Assembly (NCBI RefSeq): GCF_003574315.2
Contig: NZ_AP025739.1
Coordinates: forward strand, 4,030,001 to 4,094,000
Source: Capsulimonas corticalis
GTDB taxonomy: Bacteria; Armatimonadota; Armatimonadia; Armatimonadales; Capsulimonadaceae
DNA: 64,000 bases
Reading direction: 5' to 3'
Below, piece after piece: positions 11,236 through 63,437 of the stretch (positions within the stretch are counted from its first letter, which is position 1; each line of letters starts with the position of its first letter). Made by a program: the position numbers and the translations under genes. The notes under the pieces were generated by a model that saw nothing but the letters and a program-made list of their open reading frames with translations, did no database searches and was not told where the DNA came from.

Positions 11236-11479
11236 AGTCCCTATTCCCCCGGCGCTTTATCGCGCTTCCCCCTCTTTCCCAACAAGCTGCTGCGCAGGGG
11301 AAAAGGGGAGCCACTCATTTTAGCCATTCACTCGTCACATAAACGTGAGGATCATGATTACGAAAGCAAAGCATTCATCAAACATACTTGTCGAGCGAGC
11401 AAGGATCACAATGATGAGCGCCCCTTTTACCTCTGGGCAAAAGGGGGAAGCGCGATAAAGCGCCGGGGGAATAGGGACT
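11236..11479. repeat. Long inverted repeat between nuoN and the MutS-like gene
   Basis: Bases 11236-11272 are an exact 37-nt reverse complement of 11443-11479. The pairing continues imperfectly inward (11296-11318 against 11411-11434). The outer arm contains CCCTATTCCCCCGGCGCTTTA, identical to one half of the palindrome at 25311-25346. The roughly 90-bp centre (about 11319-11410) is less GC-rich and has no ORF. The element fills almost all of the 318-bp gap between convergent genes; nothing else is visible there except the nuo terminator. Confidence 0.9.
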
Positions 11480-18286: not shown

Positions 18287-18324
18287 AAAATCCCCCTCGG
18301 AGCTGCGCTCCGAGGGGGATTTTT
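18287..18324. terminator. Bidirectional terminator between clpC and tRNA-Ser
   Basis: A 16-bp stem (18287-18302 paired with 18308-18323) with a 5-nt loop is flanked by A-rich sequence on the left and TTTTT on the right. It can terminate clpC on the plus strand and the tRNA transcript on the minus strand. Confidence 0.9.
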
Positions 18325-19234: not shown

Positions 19235-19257
19235 TCGTGCGGCGGACACATCGCTTC

Positions 19258-19290
19258 AAAAAGGGCGGCCACGGATGGCCGCCCTTTTTG
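19258..19290. terminator. Bidirectional terminator
   Basis: A 14-bp perfect stem AAAAAGGGCGGCCA / TGGCCGCCCTTTTT with a 4-nt loop lies between convergent genes. It has A- and T-runs on either side, so it can serve both the small secreted gene and the GH92 gene. Confidence 0.9.
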
Positions 19291-24809: not shown

Positions 24810-24905
24810 AATGAGAGCACGATTGGTTGTCTGATCGGTAATTGTCGATTAATGCGACGTGACGGCGCGAACCAAGCGCTTCACCTTCTAAGGATTGGGT
24901 GTTTC

Positions 24906-25295
24906 ATGGAGAATTTAAGGATTGAAACGACGCTTCGTTTCCTCCAGAGTGTGCCGGTGCTGGATGTCGTGGGAGAAATCGATATCTACACAACGCCGCA
25001 GTTCAAGGAAGCGGTCAATAGCGCCATCGAAGAAGGTGGCCCGGCGATCATTATCAACATGGCCAACGTCAGCTATATGGACAGCAGCGGCTTCGGCACG
25101 CTTCTGTCCGCGACCAAACGCCTGCGCCCAATGAACGGCGCGCTTTATCTCGTGGCCTGCAACGAAGCGATCACGCGGATGCTGCAAATCACCCGCCTCA
25201 ATACCATCTTCGGCGTCTACGAAACCGAAGACGAAGCCGTCACCGCCGCCAAGGAACAGCAAGCCTCCAGCCAGGCGATCGCGACGCCTTCTTAG
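24906..25295 (+). CDS. STAS-domain anti-sigma factor antagonist
   Basis: A 129-residue STAS protein like SpoIIAA/RsbV, which bind and free anti-sigma kinases in partner-switching systems. The fold starts VLDVVGEIDIYTTPQFKEAV. The phosphorylatable serine lies in YMDSSGFGTLL near residues 57-67. A short Gln/Ala-rich tail follows. The ATG at 24906 fits the family start; an upstream ATG at 24852 would add 18 residues. The ribosome-binding AAGGA is somewhat distant. No anti-sigma kinase or sigma factor is adjacent. A SpoIIE-type phosphatase at 42130 could serve it. Confidence 0.9.
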   Translation: MENLRIETTLRFLQSVPVLDVVGEIDIYTTPQFKEAVNSAIEEGGPAIIINMANVSYMDSSGFGTLLSATKRLRPMNGALYLVACNEAITRMLQITRLNTIFGVYETEDEAVTAAKEQQASSQAIATPS

Positions 25296-25310
25296 ACAAC
25301 ATTAGTCGGC

Positions 25311-25346
25311 CCTATTCCCCCGGCGCTTTAGCGCCGGGGGAATAGG
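25311..25346. repeat. Short perfect palindrome between convergent genes
   Basis: A 17-bp stem CCTATTCCCCCGGCGCT paired with its complement around a 2-nt loop (TT). It lies between the STAS gene and the YfhO-like gene, which face each other. The left half with its flank, CCCTATTCCCCCGGCGCTTTA, is identical to the outer arm of the inverted repeat at 11236. There is no T-run right after the stem, so it is not a classical terminator. Confidence 0.9.
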
Positions 25347-25358
25347 AATTTCCGAACG

Positions 25359-27647
25359 CTAAAAGCGCCTGTCTCGACTGGGAGTCAGCATAAACGCGAG
25401 GATCGCGCACGCCAGACATAATCCGTAGAGGCCGACTTGAACCGACGCCGGAGCGTAACGCATTTCGAGATGCGCCGTCGCTCCGGCGTTTTGCTGTGCG
25501 CCCGTGATCGTCCGGAACACTTGCGGGCCATGGGTGATCGCTGCCGCGGAGCCGTTGAAACGGGCGGTCCATCCCGGGAACCACTGATCGTTGACCACGA
25601 TATTCTGTGTCGCGGTATTGTCCAGAGTAAGATTCAAGCGATTGGGACCGTCGCTGACGGAGGCGCGGGGCGCGGCCGATTTGTCTTCGTAGACATAGCC
25701 GTCGTCGCCGCCATAGACCTGGCTTATCGTGGCGTCGTTGTCTGGGAGCGGCTCGCGGGACACCAGATACCGGGCGGACGCCATGCGGGCTAGCTCGCTC
25801 CCGACGCCGCGCGTGAAGACCATGTTGCCGTTTTCCTGGGGAGCCGGCGGCTTGCCGTCGCCGTTCAGCGCCGCCGCGAACGCCATGTACTGGCCGGGGA
25901 AGAGGGAGTCGTAGCCCTGGGTGTCGTACAAACCGTAGACCATGGCGGCGTTGGGCGGCAGGATCGCGCGGGGGGGATGCGCCGGGTCGATGCTCCAGCT
26001 CGTATTGACCGGCATGATCCGGTCGGTTCCGGCGTGCTGCTGTAGGAAGGCGATCAAAGGCGTCGTGGGATAGACATTCGTCGCGAGTGTGGAGCGGTTA
26101 TAGCCCATGCCGGAGACGAGCAGATCCAGCGCGAGCACGGCGATCAGGCCGCCGCCGGCGATCCGGGGCGTGAGTTTTCCCGTCTGATACTGATATAGCA
26201 GGATCGCGGTCAGAAAGAGCAGGCCGACGGGGAGCCGCCACAAGTCGCCTTCCGTGGCGAAAATCGTGGACAAGGCTCCGGACGGCGCGTTTTTATTGAT
26301 CCACCAGAGCGTATAGCCCATCGTGACGGCGAGCAGCGCCAGGAGCGCTCCGGAGGCGCGTCCGATCAGCGCGGCGGGCTTTGCTTCGCGCAGCTGGCTG
26401 AGTATCCCCTGCGCGCCGTAAGCGGCGAGGATTGCCGCGCAGAACGACCAGAGCACAAGGATTCGGCCCGGCGACCCTGTCTGCGCAAATCCAGGGATCC
26501 CGAAGAACAAGATCGTATCGATCGGCGTTCCCGTCGCGACGAGCATGGCGACGACGGCGCTGACGGCAAAGAAGCGCACGGGCTTGCTCGGACGCCAGCC
26601 TGCGATCACCCCCACAAGCGCCAGCAGCAGCGCCGGGACGCCGACGTAGGCCGCGTTCTCGGCGTAGTTGGTGTAACCCCAATAGCTCCCCACCGTCGGA
26701 TTGCCGAAGAAATCCGGCGCGAAGATCGACACCAGGTGATAGGCGGGAACGGCCAGGCTGATGTAGCCCTGATACCCCGTCCATGTCGGCGCCCCGCCCG
26801 CCCGGTGCGACATCCGCGACAACTCCACGGACGGCAGCAGCTGGGCCGCCCCGATCAATACCATCACCCCCACGGCAAGCGCCGCGCCGGCGATCAGAGC
26901 GATGCGGCTGCGGCCGCGCGCCGACGGCAGCGCGATGCTCAGGGCATAACCGCCGATCATCAGATAGCAGTAAAGGCAGATCTGAAGATGCCCCGCCAGC
27001 AGCATCAATCCCAGGCACGCGCCCAGCAGCGCGGCGCGCGCGCGGGTGGGGCGATCGGCGAAGCGCTGCGTGAGCAGCAGGGCGGCGGGCAGCCAGGTGG
27101 AGACGCATAGAAACGTCGGCAGCGCGAGCCACGACACCTGCCACGTACAGAGCTGCCAGACCACCGCGCCCGCCAGCGCCGCGCTTCGGCTGAGACGAAA
27201 CGCCGATGAACGCAGGAACGCATAGAGGAACATGCCGGTCAGGAATAAGTGCAGCAGCACGCTCGCGCCGAACGCCGCCGTGACGGGCAGAATGACAAAT
27301 AGGCAGTTGAAGGGGTAAAAGATCGCCGACTGCGAGTTGCCCACGAAGGGCGTCCCGCAAAACTGATGGGGGTTCCACAGCGGAAGATAGCCCGCGTGGA
27401 CCGAGCGCGACAGAAATAATCGCCACGGATAGAACTCGGCGACGCCGTCCCACATCAGCGGGTTCCAGGGAAGCAGGTGCGTATCGGCGGCCTGGCGCCA
27501 GGGCGCGATGTCGCGCTGGAGATCGGCGGGAACGAACGCTTCGCCCAGAAAGACGACCCGCCAGAGCAGCAGGATCGGGAGCAAAGCGAGAATGAGCGCC
27601 GGCAGAGCGCTCATGCGAATGCGTGACATCATCGGGGCGCCATCCAT
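25359..27647 (-). CDS. YfhO-like polytopic membrane protein
   Basis: A 762-residue membrane protein with about 12 helices in the first 500 residues, then a 220-residue extracytoplasmic domain and a final helix before RDRRF. The start of the mature part (ADLQRDIAPWRQAADTHLLP, then LPLWNPHQFCGTPFVGNSQS) matches the YfhO/GT-C family, whose members add sugars to lipid- or wall-linked polymers from polyprenyl donors. The substrate is unknown. It is the last minus-strand gene after priA-def-fmt-tpr, but it has its own TATACT (27660-27655) only 7 nt before the ATG, suggesting a leaderless transcript. Confidence 0.8.
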   Translation of the reverse strand: MDGAPMMSRIRMSALPALILALLPILLLWRVVFLGEAFVPADLQRDIAPWRQAADTHLLPWNPLMWDGVAEFYPWRLFLSRSVHAGYLPLWNPHQFCGTPFVGNSQSAIFYPFNCLFVILPVTAAFGASVLLHLFLTGMFLYAFLRSSAFRLSRSAALAGAVVWQLCTWQVSWLALPTFLCVSTWLPAALLLTQRFADRPTRARAALLGACLGLMLLAGHLQICLYCYLMIGGYALSIALPSARGRSRIALIAGAALAVGVMVLIGAAQLLPSVELSRMSHRAGGAPTWTGYQGYISLAVPAYHLVSIFAPDFFGNPTVGSYWGYTNYAENAAYVGVPALLLALVGVIAGWRPSKPVRFFAVSAVVAMLVATGTPIDTILFFGIPGFAQTGSPGRILVLWSFCAAILAAYGAQGILSQLREAKPAALIGRASGALLALLAVTMGYTLWWINKNAPSGALSTIFATEGDLWRLPVGLLFLTAILLYQYQTGKLTPRIAGGGLIAVLALDLLVSGMGYNRSTLATNVYPTTPLIAFLQQHAGTDRIMPVNTSWSIDPAHPPRAILPPNAAMVYGLYDTQGYDSLFPGQYMAFAAALNGDGKPPAPQENGNMVFTRGVGSELARMASARYLVSREPLPDNDATISQVYGGDDGYVYEDKSAAPRASVSDGPNRLNLTLDNTATQNIVVNDQWFPGWTARFNGSAAAITHGPQVFRTITGAQQNAGATAHLEMRYAPASVQVGLYGLCLACAILAFMLTPSRDRRF

Positions 27648-45311: not shown

Positions 45312-45350
45312 AAAAAACGGGCGGCGGGGCCGAAGCCCCGCCGCCCGTTT
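45312..45350 (-). terminator. Intrinsic terminator of the erpA-like gene
   Basis: A perfect 16-bp stem AAACGGGCGGCGGGGC / GCCCCGCCGCCCGTTT with a 4-nt loop. On the minus strand it is followed by a T-run (rc of 45312-45317). It lies 20 bp after the ErpA-like stop. Confidence 0.9.
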
Positions 45351-45370
45351 TCTGATTTTCGACTGCGTGA

Positions 45371-51301: not shown

Positions 51302-51496
51302 CTCAGGCGCTCGCTGTGCCCCCGCAATGAATTACGGGGCTAGGGGCGCAGAGCGCCGACCGTCCGTGCCGTACGGAAGAACAAGAAACGCTGGCGATAA
51401 TTATCCTCCGTCCGGCACGGTGGGCGCCCTTTGGGCGCTGGTTGCGAAGCAACCCCCAGCCCCGTATTTCAATGCGGGGGCGCGACGAGCGCTCAG
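51302..51496. repeat. Imperfect inverted repeat with nested hairpins (divergent region)
   Basis: The left arm (about 51302-51380) is complementary to the right arm (about 51403-51496) with gaps and mismatches over roughly 75-90 nt, ending in CTCAG at the left and GCTCAG at the right. Nested perfect hairpins sit in the right arm: GCGCCCTTTGGGCGC (51424-51438) and GGTTGCGAAGCAACC (51440-51454). The 313-bp gap between nagZ and the next gene holds this element and no ORF. Confidence 0.85.
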
Positions 51497-54287: not shown

Positions 54288-54458
54288 GCCTCTCCCGGCA
54301 AACCCACCCCGGCGCTTCGCGCCACCCCTCCCGCCGACGCGAAGGGTTATTTCAGAGCGTGTTATCGCAGGCGACTTTCGTAAGAGGCAATCTTCCAAAC
54401 CCTTCCCGTCGGCGGGAGGGGTGGCGCGAAGCGCCGGGGTGGGTTTGCCGGGAGAGGC
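54288..54458. repeat. Near-perfect 61-bp inverted repeat between convergent genes
   Basis: Bases 54288-54348 are complementary to 54398-54458 at 60 of 61 positions (mismatch at the C/G in GACGCGAAGG/GACGGGAAGG), around a 49-nt centre. The arms contain words of the type CCCCGGCGCTTCGCGCC, similar in style to the other repeats in the window. It fills most of the 223-bp gap between the Pat-like and anmK genes, which face each other. There is no ORF. Confidence 0.95.
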
Positions 54459-63381: not shown

Positions 63382-63391
63382 ATTTGGGTCG

Positions 63392-63433
63392 CCCCATCCC
63401 TCCATCGAGCTAAAGCTCGATGGAGGGATGGGG
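63392..63433. repeat. Perfect 42-nt palindrome between convergent genes
   Basis: A stem of 20 bp, CCCCATCCCTCCATCGAGCT with its complement, and a 2-nt AA loop. It lies between the HAD gene and the UlaG-like gene, only 10 bp after the HAD stop. There is no T-run after the stem. It is similar in form to the palindrome at 25311. Confidence 0.92.
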
Positions 63434-63437
63434 AGCT

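Follow-up and report, generated by a model that had tools for sequence, protein, structure and literature searches.

The DNA analysed here, a window of 64,000 nucleotides that spans positions 4,030,001-4,094,000 of the 7.65 Mb single-contig genome of Capsulimonas corticalis, contains a pair of convergent genes whose stops at 25295 and 25359 (window coordinates) are separated by a gap of 63 nt, most of it occupied by a hairpin. The left gene (24906..25295, + strand, with a possible earlier start at 24852) encodes a STAS-domain protein, and the right gene (25359..27647, - strand) is membrane-protein-like, with a weak match to YfhO that lies under the Pfam cut-off. As originally predicted, positions 25311-25346 form a perfect palindrome, CCTATTCCCCCGGCGCT-TT-AGCGCCGGGGGAATAGG, in which all 17 bp of the arms pair around a 2-nt loop; as RNA, one strand is predicted to fold at -38.6 and the other at -40.3 kcal/mol, with z-scores near -8. 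From pairing, sequence matches and fold we delimited a compact element at 25310..25347, assigned to neither strand, which starts 14 nt after the STAS-domain gene and ends 11 nt short of its neighbour's stop. Its outer arms O (CCCTATTCCCCC, 25310-25321) and O' (GGGGGAATAGGA, 25336-25347) enclose a mini-palindrome m (GGCGCTTTAGCGCC, 25322-25335). The match of this locus to the sister MAG Capsulimonas sp. RYN_270 was limited to the first 721 bp of the query, as flank.

The hairpin shares the 21-mer CCCTATTCCCCCGGCGCTTTA with a much longer structure in the same window. Exact matches are found at 25310-25330 (+), 11239-11259 (+) and 11456-11476 (-), the latter two being the arms of an expanded element (11239..11476, no strand assigned) that also lies between convergent genes. 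The 21-mer did not occur in any of 100 dinucleotide shuffles, and these shuffles, together with a reversed-motif control that gave no match, rule out chance. The expanded element has the order O-m-I-core-I'-m'-O', with a left inner hairpin I at 11268..11308 (CCCCCTCTTTCCC...GGGGAAAAGGGG) and a right inner hairpin I' at 11421..11447 (CCCCTTTTACC...GGGCAAAAGGGGG), neither assigned to a strand. Its arms (11236-11281 and 11434-11479) are 46 nt each and 152 nt apart; the value of about 170 nt in the original prediction was a loose one. That prediction was right to regard short and expanded forms as one family.

Genome-wide, the outer 11-mer CCCTATTCCCC of this family (family A) has 38 + 36 = 74 matches, compared with 0 + 0 for the reversed control. 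The sister species has 24, and five other genomes of the same taxonomic family have at most three each. Outside Capsulimonas, other phyla included, matches to the compact pattern have unrelated interiors. In a Candidatus Methylomirabilis MAG, five short palindromes (loci L078, L082, L088, L089 and L094) combine outer CCCTATTCCCC with a different centre, possibly by convergent origin. Tallies of the forms rest on individually examined loci and on our own codon-bias gene caller rather than curated annotation, and comprise expanded copies of about 220-300 bp with the O-m-I-core-I'-m'-O' order (O, CCCTATTCCCCC; m, usually GGCGCTTTAGCGC; I, a hairpin CCCCCTTTTTCCC...GGGGAAAAGGGG), medium copies of 68 and 102 bp, compact O-m-O' copies of 30-42 bp, and lone half-sites. 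By our own reading of the loci, 30 of 31 inner-module matches sit within outer arms. Compensatory paired changes between arms outside O did not rise above shuffle level, and a search of Rfam yielded sub-threshold matches only, none above a family's gathering score. A role as a DNA uptake sequence was ruled out, there being merely 74 copies in 7.6 Mb.

Two further elements in the window, at 63392 and 54288, had been counted as the same repeat and proved to be different. The first is a compact copy from sister subfamily D (63390..63435, no strand assigned, outer arm CCCCATCCC), whose other copies include an expanded one at locus L187 and a compact one at locus L189. The second belongs to family B (54288..54458, no strand assigned, GGCAAACCCACCCC), which keeps the nested-hairpin design with a different sequence. 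Family B is a second hairpin family that has undergone a recent burst; its motif has 149 matches genome-wide, many of them paired at a constant distance of 139 nt, and units of 36-38 bp occur in tandem. The families also meet in single loci, B being nested in A arms at 2,482,563 and pieces of A, B and D being mixed at 1,657,377.

Once lone half-sites were excluded, 41 copies of family A remained for an orientation tally: 19 have convergent neighbours, 22 have tandem ones and none has divergent ones. Since convergent gaps account for 12.7% of intergenic bases (464-kb sample), the enrichment at convergent junctions that had been proposed is real (p = 1.4e-7); it is also seen in the compact forms taken separately (8 of 14, p = 1e-4), and RYN_270 has the same bias (8 of 12). 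As a rule, however, a position just after a stop codon fits better than convergence as such: 16 of 17 tandem copies are nearer the upstream stop. Most copies begin 1-26 nt past a stop codon and some provide the stop, the gene's TAG or TAA sitting one nt before CCCTATT in 12 arms; TAR is also common at arm ends that do not serve as stops.

The terminator role put forward in the original prediction found no support in the form given there. No U-tract accompanies the compact hairpins on either side, which makes a classical intrinsic terminator unlikely, and terminator prediction made no call at 25311-25346. Family A resembles Rho-independent terminators in its strong GC-rich hairpin after stops, often common to convergent genes, and differs from them in lacking the U-tract and in being a repeated sequence family. 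A broader version, in which compact hairpins are selected bidirectional terminators or RNA stabilisers of convergent genes, spread by gene conversion, and expanded copies are incidental insertions, seems to us fairly unlikely. It accounts for the location at convergent stops and for small gaps that hold no second hairpin, such as the 63 nt described above. At 5,107,535, where both species have a compact copy, the hairpin is unchanged over 33 nt while the flanks differ by 14-18%, and at two loci a family hairpin in RYN_270 is matched by a different hairpin in this genome. One of these is the subfamily D element at 63390..63435, whose apparent orthologous junction in RYN_270 holds a family-A compact hairpin; at the other, near 4.70 Mb, the hairpin here is AGAGGCGCCGGCGGTT-TT-AACCGCCGGCGCCTCT, and the neighbouring RYN_270 protein has a hairpin-encoded C-terminus, SPIPPAL, where the protein here ends in GGDTFKSV. 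Against this version stand the missing U-tract, which is present at many of the genome's ordinary post-stop hairpins, and the fact that the arms are part of a mobile-element length series with copied flank.

The length series itself suggests which way the forms have changed. One medium copy from this genome and one from RYN_270 share an identical junction, which lies within the direct repeats formed by CCCTATTCCCC of O and CCCTTTTCCCC of I'. Compact copies with a non-palindromic m (4,630,424 and 6,294,578) retain an entire arm, after which comes the outer arm from the far side. Identical junctions, a retained whole arm and the placement of the inner module in outer arms fit the collapse of a long palindrome, and the junctions indicate that medium and compact copies probably derive from expanded ones by deletion between short direct repeats. 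What the original prediction had overlooked is that the compact forms resemble remnants left by deletion in a mobile element able to carry an endonuclease gene. The reverse order, with compact hairpins first and expanded copies formed by insertion of inner elements into them, would explain why two inner types (A and B) occur within CCCTATTCCCC arms (2,482,563; 1,657,377), and m is usually palindromic, so that a target duplication would look alike. We regard it as improbable: at the expanded copy 3,271,459 a non-palindromic m is inverted, not direct, across the two sides, the medium forms are clear deletions, and outer arms almost always accompany the inner module.

Several observations bear on mobility. 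The expanded copy in the window (11239..11476) is 98.7% identical over 238 bp to a copy at 1,905,809. A 26-nt stretch flanking the window copy on the outside, from the end of the neighbouring MutS-like gene, recurs beside the compact copy at 5,787,895. The site syntenic to one expanded copy of RYN_270 is empty in this genome and lies beside tRNA-like sequence. No direct repeat was seen by eye at the ends of the elements, the sole empty site being too diverged to define a target-site duplication, and no defined element end was found. Several loci are conserved between both species, so movement has not been frequent: besides 5,107,535, the locus at 1,441,113 is expanded in both, with an IS3-family element in this genome only, and that at 3,903,291 is medium in RYN_270 and expanded plus IS here. 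The same IS3-family element interrupts three expanded copies (1,441,113, 2,048,452 and 3,903,291), apparently with a preference for the inner hairpin's base; we rejected it as the driver and regard it as a passenger, as we do a Tn5/IS4-like element at 1,657,377.

A different candidate is encoded by a 677-bp copy at 2,525,611, in which a 133-aa ORF lies between the same O-m-I arms. Its product belongs to DUF559 (PF04480; E = 2e-30, 105.3 bits against a gathering cut-off of 20.6) and has a relative of solved structure (PDB 3HRL). Most expanded copies, 240-300 bp in length, have no endonuclease gene, and these gene-free copies are non-autonomous. The only other DUF559 gene among the examined loci of the genome is likewise enclosed by hairpin inverted repeats (AAGATGCCCCCCGGCCCCCACAGGGGTGCAGACCATAG). 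Separately, a 907-bp family-A copy at 3,596,273-3,597,179 (L062:3073-3980) holds a 168-aa ORF (L062:3257-3763, minus strand) with no match in Pfam or NCBIfam.

To these two genes we added others drawn from plasmid records, estimating the gene ends where records were unannotated, and scored a gene as framed if its 250-bp flanks contained an inverted repeat between them with a score of at least 20. In the first set, after which this threshold was set, 10 of 15 DUF559 genes were framed (13 of the 15 from plasmids, two from the Capsulimonas genome); in the second set, a fairer test as the threshold predates it, 5 of 9 were. The total of 15 of 24, from Capsulimonas, Deinococcus, cyanobacteria and Proteobacteria, compares with none of 306 control genes, made up of 65 neighbouring CDS and 241 from Capsulimonas (pooled Fisher p = 4e-20). 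A flanking repeat was absent from the remaining nine genes, and E. coli ycjD also has none. The arms around DUF559 genes hold m- and I-like hairpins; several of the genes sit singly within operons (hpa, suf, paa, transhydrogenase), and two of the elements start at the base right after a stop codon. Plasmids of Deinococcus and cyanobacteria also have arms of this sort that lack DUF559. The motif E-x-D-G-x-x-H is kept in nine aligned DUF559 proteins. In Sinorhizobium meliloti pSymB (L214), a DUF559 gene is framed by arms of more than 100 nt made up of CCCTCTCCCCGCGCGCGGGGAGAGGG palindromes, which presumably resemble known rhizobial intergenic palindromic repeats.

Among the papers that name DUF559, in a body of literature of incomplete coverage, none concerns hairpin repeats of this kind, judging from titles and abstracts; one deals with Legionella mutation hotspots and another with a Vsr-like nuclease of Caulobacter, VsrA (PMC12907096). 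The protein of the 2,525,611 copy is like these endonucleases in its Pfam family and its solved relative; they are described as Vsr-like repair nucleases, and the search of that literature turned up no connection of theirs with hairpin repeats.

On balance, then, we favour the view, though by a modest preference, that the palindrome at 25311-25346 is the most reduced version, O-m-O', of mobile elements with nested hairpins that form a family confined to Capsulimonas and whose copying would be driven by DUF559. In the full element, long inverted arms O-m-I flank a core, which in one copy holds the DUF559 (Vsr-like) gene. The nuclease may cut in or close to gene ends that tend to form hairpins; the ensuing repair would copy the element, sometimes together with flank, in a homing-like manner. 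Long copies would be unstable and could collapse by deletion between m and m', or between CCCTATTCCCC in O and CCCTTTTCCCC in I'. Elements insert, or persist, immediately after stop codons and at times supply the stop, so that their relics would become the 3'-end hairpins of convergent or tandem transcripts. The gene-end position, length series, empty site, recent copy, co-copied flank and DUF559-repeat association are features of the loci themselves, and it is from them that we infer copying by DUF559 and any function in transcripts. Only one A copy carries DUF559 and the long copy at 3,596,273 holds an unrelated ORF, so DUF559 could be cargo. As for function, the compact relics, as 3'-end hairpins, would most likely protect RNA or aid the formation of its end. 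Effects on ribosomes near stop codons, reported for REPs (PMC12306157), are possible for the relics as well.

Among known systems, REPs are multi-copy short hairpins, mostly intergenic and within about 20 bp of 3' ends, that sometimes supply the stop (PMC3733652). Family A is like REPs and REPINs in its multi-copy hairpins near 3' ends in convergent or tandem settings, with none of its copies between divergent genes, where REPs too are rare; unlike them it follows no tag rule (GTAG in 5 and CGTC in 11 of 90 arms), has no RAYT gene framed by the repeat, and combines nested hairpins with a gradation of lengths between 30 and about 300 bp and, in one copy, with DUF559. Long terminal inverted repeats, the usual lack of coding sequence, a near-identical recent copy, an empty site in a relative and a gene-bearing copy with the same arms recall MITEs; a target-site duplication was not seen by eye, and the family departs from MITEs in having a DUF559 endonuclease-like gene, a putative helper and not a transposase, as partner, and in collapsing to solitary hairpins. 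Family A thus behaves in a REP/MITE-like manner and falls outside the REPs because the tag and the RAYT partner are absent. That it is a REP/REPIN family mobilised by a Y1 transposase (RAYT or IS200/IS605) is the least probable of the readings considered: the genome does have four good Y1 matches and the hairpins lie by 3' ends and can supply a TAG stop in REP fashion, but the GTAG tag is rare, A, B and D motifs are missing from the flanks of every Y1 locus (one has another hairpin there), and the two Y1 proteins tested are IS200/IS605 TnpA, under the RAYT cut-off.

Our best reading of family A is therefore a REP/MITE-like element that probably spread with the help of DUF559 and has left compact relics in the form of hairpins at 3' ends that lack a U-tract. 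The family may be an overlooked kind of mobile DNA. Through shared arms in one genome and a strong gene-repeat association in other phyla it ties a hairpin repeat to DUF559, whose role is poorly known, and it suggests an origin for solitary gene-end hairpins in long palindromic elements that collapse in place behind a stop codon. A wider proposal, which we advance tentatively and with less confidence than that for family A, is that DUF559 genes with modular hairpin inverted repeats constitute an undescribed cross-phylum class of mobile elements, copied in a homing-like way behind stops, and that many orphan bacterial hairpin repeats, the one at 25311 included, are its non-autonomous, collapsed relics. 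Should DUF559 prove to be the cause, the class as such would be new.

Hairpins of other kinds occur elsewhere in the window. Those at 18287-18323, 19257-19290 and 45312-45353 are ordinary terminator-like hairpins bounded by an A-tract and a T-tract and unrelated to the family. At 51307-51492, flanked by divergent genes, lies an interrupted palindrome with CCCCGTATTTCAATGCGGGG-like hairpins, a kind that is also seen on the flanks of a TnpA gene of IS200/IS605 type at 2.82 Mb (L139).
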